64,000 nucleotides of DNA from Ruminiclostridium papyrosolvens DSM 2782 (GTDB taxonomy: Bacteria > Bacillota > Clostridia > Acetivibrionales > DSM-1351), in NCBI RefSeq assembly GCF_029318685.1, contig NZ_CP119677.1, positions 2,843,001 to 2,907,000 of the forward strand, read 5' to 3'. The notes below the pieces were generated by a model. It was not told where the DNA came from. It saw nothing but the letters and a program-made list of their open reading frames with translations, and made no database searches. Of this stretch, positions 8,778 to 64,000 are shown piece after piece. A program made the translations under genes and the position numbers. Position 1 is the stretch's first letter. Each line of letters begins with the position of its first letter.

Positions 8778-9012
8778 AAAAAGCCTTCCGTCTCGTAATC
8801 ATGAGACGAAAAGCTATGTTTCCGCGGTACCACTCAAGTTAATTCCTTATTAAAGAAATTCTCTTTAAATCATATAACGGTGAAAACCGTTTCAGCCTAC
8901 ATATTTCTATTTCAGCCAAAAATGCTCTTGGGCGAGCTTCAACCTTCAAAGCCTCTGTCTTTCACCAGCCGACAGCTCTCTACTGACTTATGTACGGTTT
9001 ACTATTCCCATT
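8778..9012 (-). promoter_or_regulatory. T-box leader before the acyl-CoA synthetase (specifier reads as leucine)
   Basis: The minus-strand RNA shows all T-box parts. There is a GGGAAUAGUAAAC start of stem I (about 9009), GCUGUC...GACAG with the GGUGAAAG distal loop (about 8975-8953), a stem III hairpin ACGGUUUUCACCGU (8888-8875), the T-box motif AACTTGAGTGGTACCGCGG (8840-8822), and a strong terminator ending in a U-run (8812-8775). Aligned with the ileS leader, the specifier is CUC (8936-8934), a leucine codon followed by G. A one-base shift would read GCU (Ala). A T-box ahead of an acyl-CoA ligase is unusual. Confidence 0.88.
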
Positions 9013-9079
9013 CACTGCACTGTTTTTATTGGAAATTATTAATATAATACTATGTCGACAAACTAAGTGTCAATACTTT

Positions 9080-11151: not shown

Positions 11152-11227
11152 GCGCCATTAGCTCAGTTGGTAGAGCACCTGACTCTTAATCAGGGTGTCC
11201 CCGGTTCGACCCCGTGATGGCGCACCA
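11152..11227 (+). tRNA. tRNA-Lys (anticodon CTT), copy 1
   Basis: A 76-base cloverleaf with a GCGCCAT/ATGGCGC acceptor stem, AGCTCAGTTGGTAGAGC D arm, anticodon loop CTCTTAA (CTT), GGTTCGACC T arm and encoded CCA. It is identical to the copy at 11419-11494. Confidence 0.97.
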
Positions 11228-11418: not shown

Positions 11419-11494
11419 GCGCCATTAGCTCAGTTGGTAGAGCACCTGACTCTTAATCAGGGTGTCCCCGGTTCGACCCCGTGATGGCGCACCA
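11419..11494 (+). tRNA. tRNA-Lys (anticodon CTT), copy 2
   Basis: A second, identical 76-base tRNA-Lys with encoded CCA, under its own promoter and terminator. The repeat unit is about 267 bases. Confidence 0.97.
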
Positions 11495-16534: not shown

Positions 16535-16570
16535 TGTAAATGCATAAATTCGACTTTTTATGCATTTACA
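16535..16570 (+). repeat. 14-bp hairpin just 5' of the glycine aptamer
   Basis: TGTAAATGCATAAA and its exact complement around an 8-nt loop. It abuts the aptamer P1. It could be part of the riboswitch architecture or an independent hairpin. Confidence 0.6.
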
Positions 16571-16713
16571 GCTCTCTGGAGAGTCCCAGGAATGGGCGCC
16601 GAAGGTGCAAGGCAATGGTTTTTTCATTGCCGGTCTCTCAGGCAAAAGGACAGAGCTTTATAGCTTAACGTCTTTCTCTTGGAGAGCCAAAACATTCGTT
16701 TTGGCTTTTTTGT
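16569..16713 (+). promoter_or_regulatory. Glycine riboswitch (single aptamer) and terminator
   Basis: GAGAGTCCCAGG, GGGCGCCGAAGGTGCAAGG and GGTCTCTCAGGCAAAAGGACAG-like segments (16575-16655) are the conserved glycine aptamer elements. Only one full aptamer is seen. The following GCTTTATAGC...GGAGAGC segment may be a ghost-aptamer helix. An intrinsic terminator AGCCAAAAC/GTTTTGGCT with T6 lies at 16685-16712. Placed before an AGCS symporter, it probably lets glycine control uptake; the direction of control cannot be read with certainty. Confidence 0.9.
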
Positions 16714-60562: not shown

Positions 60563-62434
60563 TTATAACATGGTATTTTTTAACATTTCTATTATATCAT
60601 TTGTTACAGCGTCTGTATCTAGTCTGAGTTTTTTCATTAGTTCATCTCTTGAGCCCTGAGATATAAACTGCTCCGGTAAACCTTTTATAAGTAAACGTGT
60701 TTTATAATTAAAAGTGTTAAGGGTATCAAGTACTCTTGTTCCGAACCCGCCCATTACACAATTGTCTTCCATGGTAACAAGGTATTTATATTTATCTGCA
60801 CATGTCTTAATCAATTCTACATCCAAAGGCTTAATAAATCTGGCGTTAACAACTCCTGCATTAATACCGTGTTCTTTTAACTTTTGTGATACATGTAAAG
60901 CTGTTTCAACCATACTGCCAACAGCCAGTATACACACCTGTTGCCCTTCTTCCAGTACTGCTCCTTTGCCGGGCAATAGAGGAATTTCCTGTTTAATTAA
61001 GTCCTTTCCTCTGCCTCTGGGATATCTGATAGCTATAGGCCCGTTATGTTTATTTATGGCATAATCAACCATTGCTCTAAGCTCGTAATAGTCTGCAGGA
61101 GCCATTATAGTAAAATCAGGTATATGATTTAAAAAAGATAAATCAAATTCACCCTGATGAGTTTCTCCATCCTCGCCTACAATCCCTGCTCTGTCAACCC
61201 CTATAACCACATGCAGCTTTTGAAGTGCTATGTCATGTATCAACTGGTCATATGCTCTTTGCAAAAAAGATGAATAAACTGCAACTACGGGTACCATACC
61301 GTTAATGGCCATACCGGCAGCCGATGTAATTGCATGCTGTTCGGCTATCCCCACATCAAAAAACCTTTGAGGGTACGTTTCGCTGAATTTGAATAATCCC
61401 GTTCCCTTTGCCATAGCTGCTGATATTGCAACCACTCTGTCATTCATTCCGGCAGCTTTTAAAACTGCTTCTCCGAAAACTTCGGAATAGTCCGGCAGTT
61501 TCTTTCCATAGGTTTGTCCTGTTTCCACCTCAAAAGGTGCTATTCCATGAAACCTGTCCGGACTTTGTTCTGCATAAGAATAGCCCTTTCCCTTCTGAGT
61601 ACATACATGAATCAGCACAGGCCCTTTAATTTTTTTAGCAGCCTGCAGCGATTTATTTAGCTCGTCCAAACTATGCCCGTCAACAGGTCCGTAATATTTA
61701 TAACCTAACTGTTCAAAAAATACTCCCGGCGTAATGAGATATTTAACAGTACTTTTTAGTTTTCGTACTGCTTTTCTGGCTTTCTTACCTATATTTGGCA
61801 GTTTATCAAGAAAATTATCTATATCCTCTTTAGTCTTTGTGTAAACAGGGTCAGTACGAAGTTTACTTAGGTACCTTGACATTCCGCCAACATTTTGTGC
61901 TATGGACATCTCATTGTCATTAAGAATCACAATAAAGTTGCTGTTTAGTCTTCCAGCGTCATTTAAGGCTTCATAAGCCATTCCGCCTGTCATAGCCCCA
62001 TCGCCTATGACAGCCATTACACTATAGTCTTCCTTCTTTATATCCCTCGCACGGGCAATACCCAGTGCTGCAGAGATTGACGTACTGCTGTGTCCCGTGT
62101 TAAAGCAATCATGTACACTTTCACAGGTTTTTGGAAATCCGGCTAACCCACCGAGTTTTCGTAATGTATCAAAATCTTCCTTTCGGCCTGTCAATACTTT
62201 GTGTACATATGTCTGATGTCCTACATCCCAAACAATCTTATCCTTATTTGTATTAAAGTTATTATGAATCGCAAGTGTCAATTCAACAACACCCAGATTG
62301 GAGGCTAAATGACCCCCTGTTTTTGAGACTTTATATATAAGAAATGTTCTTATTTCTTCTGCAAGAACCTTTAACTGCTCAATCTCCAATTTTTCTATAT
62401 CTTCAGGAGAGTTTATACTATCCAAATACCCCAC
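60563..62434 (-). CDS. dxs: 1-deoxy-D-xylulose-5-phosphate synthase
   Basis: The first enzyme of the MEP isoprenoid pathway: pyruvate + glyceraldehyde 3-phosphate to DXP, with thiamine diphosphate. 623 residues; WDVGHQTYVHKVLTGR, AVIGDGAMTGGMAYEALNDAG (TPP motif), GIAEQHAITSAAGMA and the transketolase stretch GVDRAGIVGEDGETHQGEFD. GTG start after AGGAG. It follows ispA-OLE-oapA, so two isoprenoid genes flank the OLE module. Confidence 0.97.
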   Translation of the reverse strand: MGYLDSINSPEDIEKLEIEQLKVLAEEIRTFLIYKVSKTGGHLASNLGVVELTLAIHNNFNTNKDKIVWDVGHQTYVHKVLTGRKEDFDTLRKLGGLAGFPKTCESVHDCFNTGHSSTSISAALGIARARDIKKEDYSVMAVIGDGAMTGGMAYEALNDAGRLNSNFIVILNDNEMSIAQNVGGMSRYLSKLRTDPVYTKTKEDIDNFLDKLPNIGKKARKAVRKLKSTVKYLITPGVFFEQLGYKYYGPVDGHSLDELNKSLQAAKKIKGPVLIHVCTQKGKGYSYAEQSPDRFHGIAPFEVETGQTYGKKLPDYSEVFGEAVLKAAGMNDRVVAISAAMAKGTGLFKFSETYPQRFFDVGIAEQHAITSAAGMAINGMVPVVAVYSSFLQRAYDQLIHDIALQKLHVVIGVDRAGIVGEDGETHQGEFDLSFLNHIPDFTIMAPADYYELRAMVDYAINKHNGPIAIRYPRGRGKDLIKQEIPLLPGKGAVLEEGQQVCILAVGSMVETALHVSQKLKEHGINAGVVNARFIKPLDVELIKTCADKYKYLVTMEDNCVMGGFGTRVLDTLNTFNYKTRLLIKGLPEQFISQGSRDELMKKLRLDTDAVTNDIIEMLKNTML

Positions 62435-62465: not shown

Positions 62466-63101
62466 TCATTTTTTTTTATTATTCCATTTCTTTTTCTTTC
62501 TAAAATTTAACTTTCCGAAAAGAAATTTTATAACAACCGCTACTTTATATATAATGTAATTACTATTTTGCAATGCTATGGATTTTCCCAGTGCTTTTCC
62601 TCCAACAGTGAGAGATGCAACCATTGCAGTAATTGAAAGCCCAAAAATTGAATTTTGCGCTCCCGTACCGCCTCCCGAAAACTTGTATACTATAAAGGCA
62701 GCCGCCGTACCGCTTATTACACTGCAAATATCTCCGACAACATCGTTGCAGAAATTTGATACCTTGTCGGCATTTCTTATGAGCATAACTGCCTGTTTAG
62801 CACCATAAAGCTTTCTTGACGCCATGGAATGAAATGGTGCTTCATCCGCAGCTGTCGCCGCTGTACCTATTAAGTCAAATAATATACTTATGATTATTAT
62901 AACAAAAACAATGAGAAATGAAACAACTGTGGTAGCATTACCTAATGTTTCATTCGAAAAAAAAGACATAAAAATAGAAATGAAAAAAGTTATTACCGTA
63001 ATTAAAAGTGTCCAAACTCTTGTTTCTTTTTTAGAGCTAATTGCGTTAGCCCTGAATTTAACCTTCTTTTCATCGGCTGGATATTTATAATTATCTTCCA
63101 C
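62466..63101 (-). CDS. oapA: OLE-associated membrane protein OapA (DUF21-like)
   Basis: 211 residues. A hydrophilic start and a basic C-terminus (FRKKKKWNNKKK) bracket three to four hydrophobic segments (TLLITVITFFISIFMSFF, TVVSFLIVFVIIIISILF, DICSVISGTAAAFIVYKF). DLIGTAATAADEAPFHSMAS is a DUF21/CNNM-type helix signature. In bacteria with OLE RNA a DUF21-like protein of this size, OapA, is encoded right next to the RNA, binds it and draws it to the membrane. Here it begins 27 bases after the OLE RNA and precedes dxs. GTG start, 6 bases after GGAGG. Its tie to OLE comes from position and family knowledge. Confidence 0.88.
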   Translation of the reverse strand: MEDNYKYPADEKKVKFRANAISSKKETRVWTLLITVITFFISIFMSFFSNETLGNATTVVSFLIVFVIIIISILFDLIGTAATAADEAPFHSMASRKLYGAKQAVMLIRNADKVSNFCNDVVGDICSVISGTAAAFIVYKFSGGGTGAQNSIFGLSITAMVASLTVGGKALGKSIALQNSNYIIYKVAVVIKFLFGKLNFRKKKKWNNKKK

Positions 63102-63127
63102 ACCAATCCTCCAGATTTATTAGAAAA

Positions 63128-63737
63128 ACAGGTGGCAGTTTATTGAGTAAATTTTGCGGCTTAGGTCAGGCAGGATTTCCCTGACATGTACTGGAATGTC
63201 GCCAAACCAGAGGTTTCCCTTTAAACACATCACCGTACGTCTCCGTTTACGGGGCCTGATTACCACTTAGTCCACACTTTAATCCTCAATAAACCACTTT
63301 GTAAGAACAGTCTAGGGGTTTTCCCCAGCAGTCAAAATGATTCCTAGCCTCTTTTGCAAAAAAGGTTTCAAACAGCAATAATGCTTATATATCGGCCAAT
63401 ACATGAAGCATCTGATCCGTTATCCACCGGATTTCACTCAAGGCAGGCTACACTGTTCACAGCCATCATATAGACACCGCATAACAGGTTTAATCCCTTT
63501 TCGTAGTTGAGGTGGCAAGCAAAAGCTTGACTTTTCTTCCACAAGTAAGGGTCTCCACGGAAAAGGGGTCAACGCCCGCATGCCATTGCGGATCGCCCCT
63601 AAGCCTTAACTCCCAGCATCAACCCACCACTGGGCGTAGCAAGCCGACACAAGGAACTTCATCGATGTGCCCTTAAACGGATTTTTAGGCCCGTCTTCAG
63701 AATCATCAGTACTGACTAGAATACTGCGCCACCCTGT
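63128..63737 (-). ncRNA. ole: OLE RNA (ornate, large, extremophilic RNA)
   Basis: A 610-base non-coding stretch, notably richer in G+C than its surroundings, between ispA and oapA. Its ends pair: ACAGGGTGGC (63737-63728) with GCCACCTGT (63136-63128), followed by a T-run. Inside are many short helices, such as GGGTTTTCCCC-type pairs near 63310 and GGGGCGATCCGCAATGGCAT near 63600-63570. No reading frame. Length, strand, neighbours (ispA, DUF21 protein, dxs) and complex fold match OLE RNA, which forms a membrane ribonucleoprotein with OapA and is linked to tolerance of cold, ethanol and magnesium in Bacillus halodurans. A covariance search would settle it. Confidence 0.92.
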
Positions 63738-63786
63738 TTTTTTGTCAATAGTAATTTTTTAATAACATAAATGCCATTGAGACAAC

Positions 63787-63814
63787 ATTATAACATAAAA
63801 ACTTTGATAAACAA
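63787..63814 (-). promoter_or_regulatory. Possible OLE RNA promoter
   Basis: Minus strand TTGTTT (63814-63809), 16 bases, TATAAT (63792-63787). This would start transcription about 40 bases before the first OLE pairing element, downstream of the ispA stop. The -35 is weak. Confidence 0.45.
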
Positions 63815-63841: not shown

Positions 63842-64000
63842 TTAGCGGTCCCTTACAACCAGTGATAATGCAAGTTCTTTTAAAAACTGCGCATTATTGC
63901 CGAATGCTTCAAGACAGGAAATACCTTCTTGAGTTACTGTTTCAAGAAGCTTTTTTGACTCTTCAAGTCCATACATGGTTACATAAGTTGATTTATTGCA
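63842..64000 (-). CDS. ispA: Geranylgeranyl/farnesyl diphosphate synthase, C-terminal end (cut by window edge)
   Basis: The last 52 codons of a minus-strand gene, starting outside the window. NKSTYVTMYGLEESKKLLE is the C-terminal KSTYV(x)xxG motif of bacterial farnesyl diphosphate synthases, and the chain ends SLVVRDR. It makes prenyl diphosphates for undecaprenyl-lipid and quinone precursors. The position before OLE-oapA-dxs agrees with the order known from other OLE-carrying Firmicutes. Confidence 0.9.
   Translation of the reverse strand, partial: CNKSTYVTMYGLEESKKLLETVTQEGISCLEAFGNNAQFLKELALSLVVRDR

Follow-up and report, generated by a model that had tools for sequence, protein, structure and literature searches.

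The window, that is, the whole stretch of 64,000 nucleotides analysed here, carries near its end and on the minus strand an OLE RNA and, directly behind it, the gene of the membrane protein OapA. We regard this identification as practically certain. The features are given below, with helix names (P3/P3.1, P5.1, P6.1, P13 and others) assigned by position and not from a published figure.

60563..62434, minus strand: dxs, downstream neighbour (TIGR00204, 810 bits)
62466..63101, minus strand: oapA, 211 aa, GTG start, CNNM-like membrane protein
63108..63112, minus strand: ribosome-binding site GGAGG of oapA, read directly, six nt before the start
63116..63748, minus strand: OLE RNA (RF01071), cmscan 546.7 bits, covariation in 76 sequences
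63128..63136, minus strand: 3' arm of the closing helix, GCCACCTGT, read directly; a T run (63127-63123) comes after it
63197..63204, minus strand: loop UGGCGACA, assigned to P13, the region reported to bind OapB
63330..63344, minus strand: 3' strand of P3/P3.1, partner of 63699..63713
63394..63397, minus strand: palindrome GGCC of the P9 loop, published kissing contact
63580..63587, minus strand: loop AAUGGCAU, taken as the P6.1 loop, dimer contact; AANGGCAU in 76/76 sequences
63631..63635, minus strand: GCCCA loop, taken as the P5.1 loop, dimer contact; GCCCA in 76/76 sequences
63682..63689, minus strand: A-rich P4 loop CCUAAAAA, published dimer contact
63699..63713, minus strand: 5' strand of P3/P3.1, 12 pairs, unpaired in the Rfam model
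63728..63737, minus strand: 5' arm of the closing helix, ACAGGGTGGC, read directly; unpaired in the Rfam model
63787..63795, minus strand: candidate extended -10 promoter TGTTATAAT for ole-oapA, motif TGnTATAAT
63842..64000, minus strand: upstream neighbour, an ispA-type prenyl synthase gene (3' end), stop codon TAA at 63844-63842

The Rfam model of OLE RNA (RF01071) matched the minus strand at 63116-63748 over its full length (model positions 1-616 of 616, cmscan) with an E value of 9.3e-159, and the score of 546.7 bits compares with a gathering threshold of 50. Seven Rfam matches in the window reached gathering score, and OLE was the top scorer. The mature RNA would occupy about 63128-63737. 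No ORF of at least 60 aa on either strand overlaps these 610 nt; the ORF list gives no hint of a protein-coding reading. The results agree with the initial annotation, which had proposed OLE RNA in a gene-free segment of 610 nt and had chosen the Rfam covariance model as its test: the model scores at full length, the segment is free of such ORFs, and its coordinates hold for both the RNA (63128-63737) and the whole unit (62466-63737). Searching with RF01071 revealed no second copy in the own 5.03-Mb single-contig genome, so that the total is one copy, and matches were obtained in 0 of 14 control genomes.

Other RNAs in the window include two T-box leaders above gathering score (8799-9024 minus, 142.4 bits; 1258-1515 minus, 126.3 bits), a glycine riboswitch aptamer (16566-16663 plus, 58 bits) and two tRNA genes with equal scores (11152-11224 and 11419-11491 plus), whose starts are 267 bases apart.

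Standard pairing was found for 141 of the 158 model pairs in the window's OLE. The 17 non-standard pairs, mostly in the P6, P7 and P9 regions, are what a decayed, non-functional remnant could show, but the score of 546.7 bits falls within the 503.7-561.9 bits of 50 full-model genomes (own included; the range omits G010 with 356.4 bits, G014 with 338.2 bits and G026 with 449.5 bits, a partial match). The closest OLE, in another species-level genome of the same genus (L086), is 99.1% identical, that of R. papyrosolvens C7 is 98.9% identical, and oapA is intact. On the full-length score within the range of the relatives and the identity to the L086 OLE we rejected the remnant, which is hardly conceivable.

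The gene order is ispA, ole, oapA, dxs, tlyA, nadK, argR, followed by recN and spoIVB, the last two assigned from their translations by eye. The ispA-type fragment of 46 aa (63862-64000) matched the FPP synthase family NF045485 and the GGPP synthase family NF045685 (E 2.2e-5). The arrangement ispA - OLE - oapA - dxs, which had been read from the sequence, is confirmed by the ORFs, the family matches and the reading of the stop codon.

Published OapA proteins have four transmembrane helices. The window's oapA begins 26 nt past the closing helix of OLE, and its product is 96-97% identical to OapA of R. papyrosolvens C7. It matched the CNNM family PF01595 with an E value of 1.8e-5 and 24.9 bits, under the cut-off of 28.4; a weak CNNM likeness of OapA is also reported in the consulted part of PMC11332333, which further describes a DxxxD motif as specific for OapA and absent from CNNM domains. 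The two residues of this motif, D120 and D124, were invariant in an alignment of 43 sequences (45 of the 59 loci were listed, three running past a stop codon were left out and the own sequence was added). A predicted structure model of OapA had a mean pLDDT of 77.0 and a pTM of 0.66, and its six best PDB matches in Foldseek were all CNNM, CorB or CorC proteins (best E 1.3e-3, TM 0.44). The DUF21-like partner named in the initial annotation thus holds, on the sub-threshold CNNM match, the DxxxD motif and a CNNM-like fold model with modest scores. Like the published OapA, it is a small CNNM-like membrane protein with invariant DxxxD, encoded right after ole, and nothing differs notably. With the Mg2+ transporters MpfA, CorB and CorC it shares, weakly in sequence and fold, the CNNM-type membrane domain, but CBS and CorC_HlyC domains are missing from it, and DxxxD is present. 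Measured by the MpfA family criterion (CNNM, tandem CBS and CorC_HlyC), OapA contains the CNNM-like part alone and falls outside the family.

For the secondary structure, 76 OLE sequences were aligned. They were drawn from 86: the own sequence, 29 from the relatives search (those given as loci among 52 other OLE-bearing genomes) and 56 from 59 OapA loci; we excluded five duplicates and five sequences that were truncated or split (L002, L011, L024, L026, L040). Over 164 pairs, 90.0% of the cells were paired. For the whole structure 2012 cells were changed on both sides, where shuffles gave 646 and slid registers no more than 537; such cell counts overstate independent events because near-identical rows (such as L021 and L027) were kept.

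The initial annotation had claimed that the segment closes on itself. Both arms are at the positions given, and the helix co-varies in relatives, so the claim stands. The inner six pairs (63733-63728 with 63136-63131) were standard in 93.9% of the cells. Changes on both sides were counted in 67 cells, where shuffles gave 17.7, and sliding the helix by 1-3 columns made the pairing worse (33-78%). One of five measures, further pair types, was not above shuffles, 218 of 500 reaching it. Eight sequences (L019, L021, L027, L034, L038, L039, L043, L044) seem to break one closing pair; all eight have GGGUA/UACCC and pair in a register shifted by one. A hairpin CAAGC-UUUU-GCUUG at 63529-63516 lies in the variable P7 region and overlaps a 13-nt insert of the cmscan alignment.

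The long-range helix P3/P3.1 was paired in 88.9% of the cells and had 204 double-change cells against 59.6 in shuffles; here also one of five measures, pairs changed on both sides, was not above shuffles (180 of 500 reach it). This helix bears on a proposal made in print, that OLE is an integral membrane RNA whose P3 spans the bilayer and whose domain 2 lies outside the cell. The 12 pairs, the 5' segment of 18 nt in 70 of 76 sequences (17 in five, 19 in one) and letters which vary while pairing is kept would suit it, as length looks more constrained than sequence. However, equally constant lengths were found for the P4 segment (74/76), the P5 segment (75/76) and the 602-612 strand (76/76), so we rejected the P3 length as specific support for a membrane span. 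OapB, which is expected in the cytoplasm and binds a site in domain 2, also fits awkwardly with an outside domain 2. We consider the integral membrane RNA unlikely.

In cryo-EM, the contacts of the OLE dimer are the A-rich loop of P4, the loops of P5.1 and P6.1 and the loop of P9, according to the consulted parts of PMC12286853 and PMC12265935. Judged by their letters, these three regions are intact in the window's OLE. Among the 76 sequences, the P4 loop is CCUAAAAA in 46, GCUAAAAA in 28 and GGUAAAAU in two. The P9 loop has no letters in seven of the 76 sequences and is palindromic in all 69 others, with GGCC in 66, AGCU in two and GAUC in one; in the latter three the letters have changed in pairs and the palindrome is retained, as required for a symmetric contact of one RNA copy with another. 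The putative P13 loop is identical in 46 of 76 sequences, and the remainder are close variants.

The motif TGnTATAAT occurs within 160 nt upstream of the OLE model start at 46 of 76 loci, where 1.5 were expected from mononucleotide shuffles, and in all nine loci of the genus that were compared (own, L075, L081, L084, L086 and L003-L006). The opposite strand had it at 1 of 76 loci and five equal stretches further upstream at 0 or 1 of 73-74. Around or inside oapA it was also found, at 17 of 76 loci from +700 to +870 and at 12 of 76 from +870 to +1040; in the own sequence this match is a run of Val-Ile-Ile codons. Because of these matches in the oapA region the motif alone is no proof of a promoter, and a consensus promoter scan listed none at 63787-63795. 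The consulted part of PMC9723947 gives OLE of B. halodurans its own promoter, and the motif may extend this, at the level of sequence, to the relatives compared here.

The OLE RNA is present in 53 of the 60 genomes of the relatives search (own included). OLE is described as typical of anaerobic or extremophilic Bacillota in the part of PMC12265935 that was consulted, and from both this range and the 53 genomes OLE is to be expected here. The initial annotation had treated OLE as a surprise in such a genome, which was overstated, and the high interest it gave to this copy belongs to the published system and not to the copy. The identification is correct, the system was known before, and nothing sets this copy apart within its lineage. 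The genome is that of a Ruminiclostridium, and its closest named relative, Ruminiclostridium papyrosolvens C7, is a mesophilic anaerobe. A literature search for OLE RNA in cellulolyticum found no paper.

Among the genomes examined, ole and oapA were jointly present or jointly absent, and the window's OapA was matched in 0 of the seven genomes of the relatives search that lack OLE. Two of these, G013 and G036, are near-complete and have ispA and dxs adjacent (L121, L120), with a gap of about 100 bases in G036 and no more than about 160 in G013; the gap of G036, the one that was read, still holds the promoter-like TGCTATAAT.

When OapA loci were searched by protein alone in named genomes, OLE was found upstream of oapA in 56 of 59, with four cut by contig ends. 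This linkage, together with the position of ole directly before the oapA ribosome-binding site, is what one would expect if the 610 nt were a long structured 5' leader which controls oapA translation in cis only. Two of the three loci without upstream OLE start at contig ends, but in the third, L041 of an uncultured Bacilli genome (a metagenome assembly in which a mixed bin is possible), about 3 kb upstream of oapA are free of OLE and the two are truly apart. Cis linkage therefore seems unnecessary, and on this ground the cis-only leader was rejected. The conservation of the dimer contacts is also unexpected for a mere leader, and a separate OLE RNA of about 630 nt was detected in published work, as stated in the consulted part of PMC9723947. 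We hold the leader to be very improbable.

In the uncultured Bacilli genome, oapA lies near 3000-3560 of L041, after a glycosyltransferase-like gene (by eye), and no OLE is present in this 6.6-kb locus; OLE is found at L125 1501-2094 of the same genome, with no oapA in the 3.6 kb covered. One metagenome bin seemed to have two OLE copies (L021, L027), but both cover the same 4.5 kb with 99.96% identity and are probably an assembly duplicate. As to mobile OLE, no match was found among phages and one among plasmids. The latter, L128 (NZ_AP023421.1, 195848-205969), belongs to a 504-kb replicon of Pusillibacter faecalis that is listed as a conjugative plasmid, carries OLE with 399.8 bits and has the usual order of OLE, a CNNM-domain protein matching the OapA profile, dxs, tlyA, NAD kinase and argR. 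By its record label, this is a housekeeping cluster off the main chromosome.

Candidate genes for the other OLE partners were found elsewhere in the genome. A candidate OapB of 93 aa, encoded between map and infA, matched OapB of PDB 7k9b with an E value of 2.1e-6; it had no Pfam match and a weak L14e match in NCBIfam, and a KOW-family search of the genome (E up to 1) did not list it. The candidate YbxF/OapC is an L7Ae-type protein of 80 aa encoded just before rpsL (PDB 4lck, YbxF, E 5.6e-13), and a second L7Ae-type protein is encoded downstream of nusA. The gene of bS21 is also present. YbxF is OapC in B. halodurans, according to the consulted part of PMC9723947. The own genome further encodes an MpfA-type protein of 441 aa with all three domains (CNNM-CBS-CorC_HlyC), and mpfA is reported absent in H. 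halodurans in the consulted text of PMC11332333.

The KOW-family search also matched a protein of 176 aa (L100 1132-1662, near 241993 of C1 in the own genome) which resembles a NusG paralogue, and gave a separate hit at C1:404788. The former may be a LoaP-type antiterminator.

The window's OLE has in common with that of H. halodurans the length, the consensus structure, the closing helix, P3, the dimer-contact loops, oapA directly downstream and isoprenoid genes as neighbours, and the genomes have in common candidate genes for OapB, OapC and bS21. The RNAs differ only at the level of the lineage, including the hairpin at 63529-63516 of the window.

We consider the published reading, in which ole and oapA form a stress particle at the membrane, very likely and the best supported. 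The RNA would be transcribed from a promoter between ispA and ole, probably with additional read-through of the operon, and would fold back on itself through the closing helix. Two copies may then form a homodimer through the loops of P4, P5.1/P6.1 and P9, and OapA would hold OLE at the membrane, while OapB (at P12.2/P13) and OapC (at a k-turn near P5) may aid folding. Under stress by cold, alcohol, Mg2+ or carbon source the particle would adjust the cell, and its most likely means is to control ion transport through the CNNM-like OapA. For the window's OLE we infer expression, dimer, membrane position and stress role, and the role in stress and Mg2+ is carried over from published work on Halalkalibacterium halodurans. 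A mechanism by control of Mg2+ or other ions has about an even chance.

Because the own genome has an MpfA-type protein, a pure role of OLE-OapA in Mg2+ export may be redundant here. In this order OLE-OapA could instead have a job of its own beside MpfA, that of a membrane particle for sensing or signalling. In favour of this, 34 of the 53 OLE carriers (own included) have at least one long CNNM protein over 70 bits, a hand count in which the full MpfA domain make-up was checked for the own protein only, and the phenotypes summarised in the consulted part of PMC12265935 go beyond Mg2+. On the other hand, MpfA and OLE are anticorrelated across Bacillota and OLE carriers typically have at most one MpfA, as given in the consulted part of PMC11332333. 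The three OLE-lacking genomes with long CNNM proteins (G013, G036, G058) have two each, the genes being adjacent only in G013 and G036, and at least two were found in 7 of 53 OLE carriers. The other four OLE-lacking genomes, with completeness of 83, 91, 55 and 73%, have no long CNNM protein. Our sample shows agreement with the published anticorrelation, yet co-existence of OLE and MpfA is common in this group. We take a job other than Mg2+ export as possible but the less probable reading, behind ion control by the OLE-OapA stress particle.

One further reading is rather doubtful. In this bacterial order OLE would be no simple stand-in for MpfA and would have another task, as suggested by the 34 of 53 carriers; yet the two relatives that cleanly lack ole and oapA between ispA and dxs hold an adjacent pair of MpfA-like genes. 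In the genus of these two relatives (G013 and G036), G027 has OLE, OapA and one MpfA-like protein, in an assembly of 790 contigs in which another such gene may be hidden.

Few bacterial RNAs without an assigned biochemical task are as large and as well conserved as OLE. The locus draws attention to anaerobes that have candidate genes for all partners, and one related genus, in which some genomes have ole-oapA and others lack it, would be useful for finding what OLE does that MpfA cannot. If the loss of ole-oapA in the two relatives is true, it would offer a natural comparison of loss and replacement within one genus, and it would show which of the OLE tasks a protein can take over.
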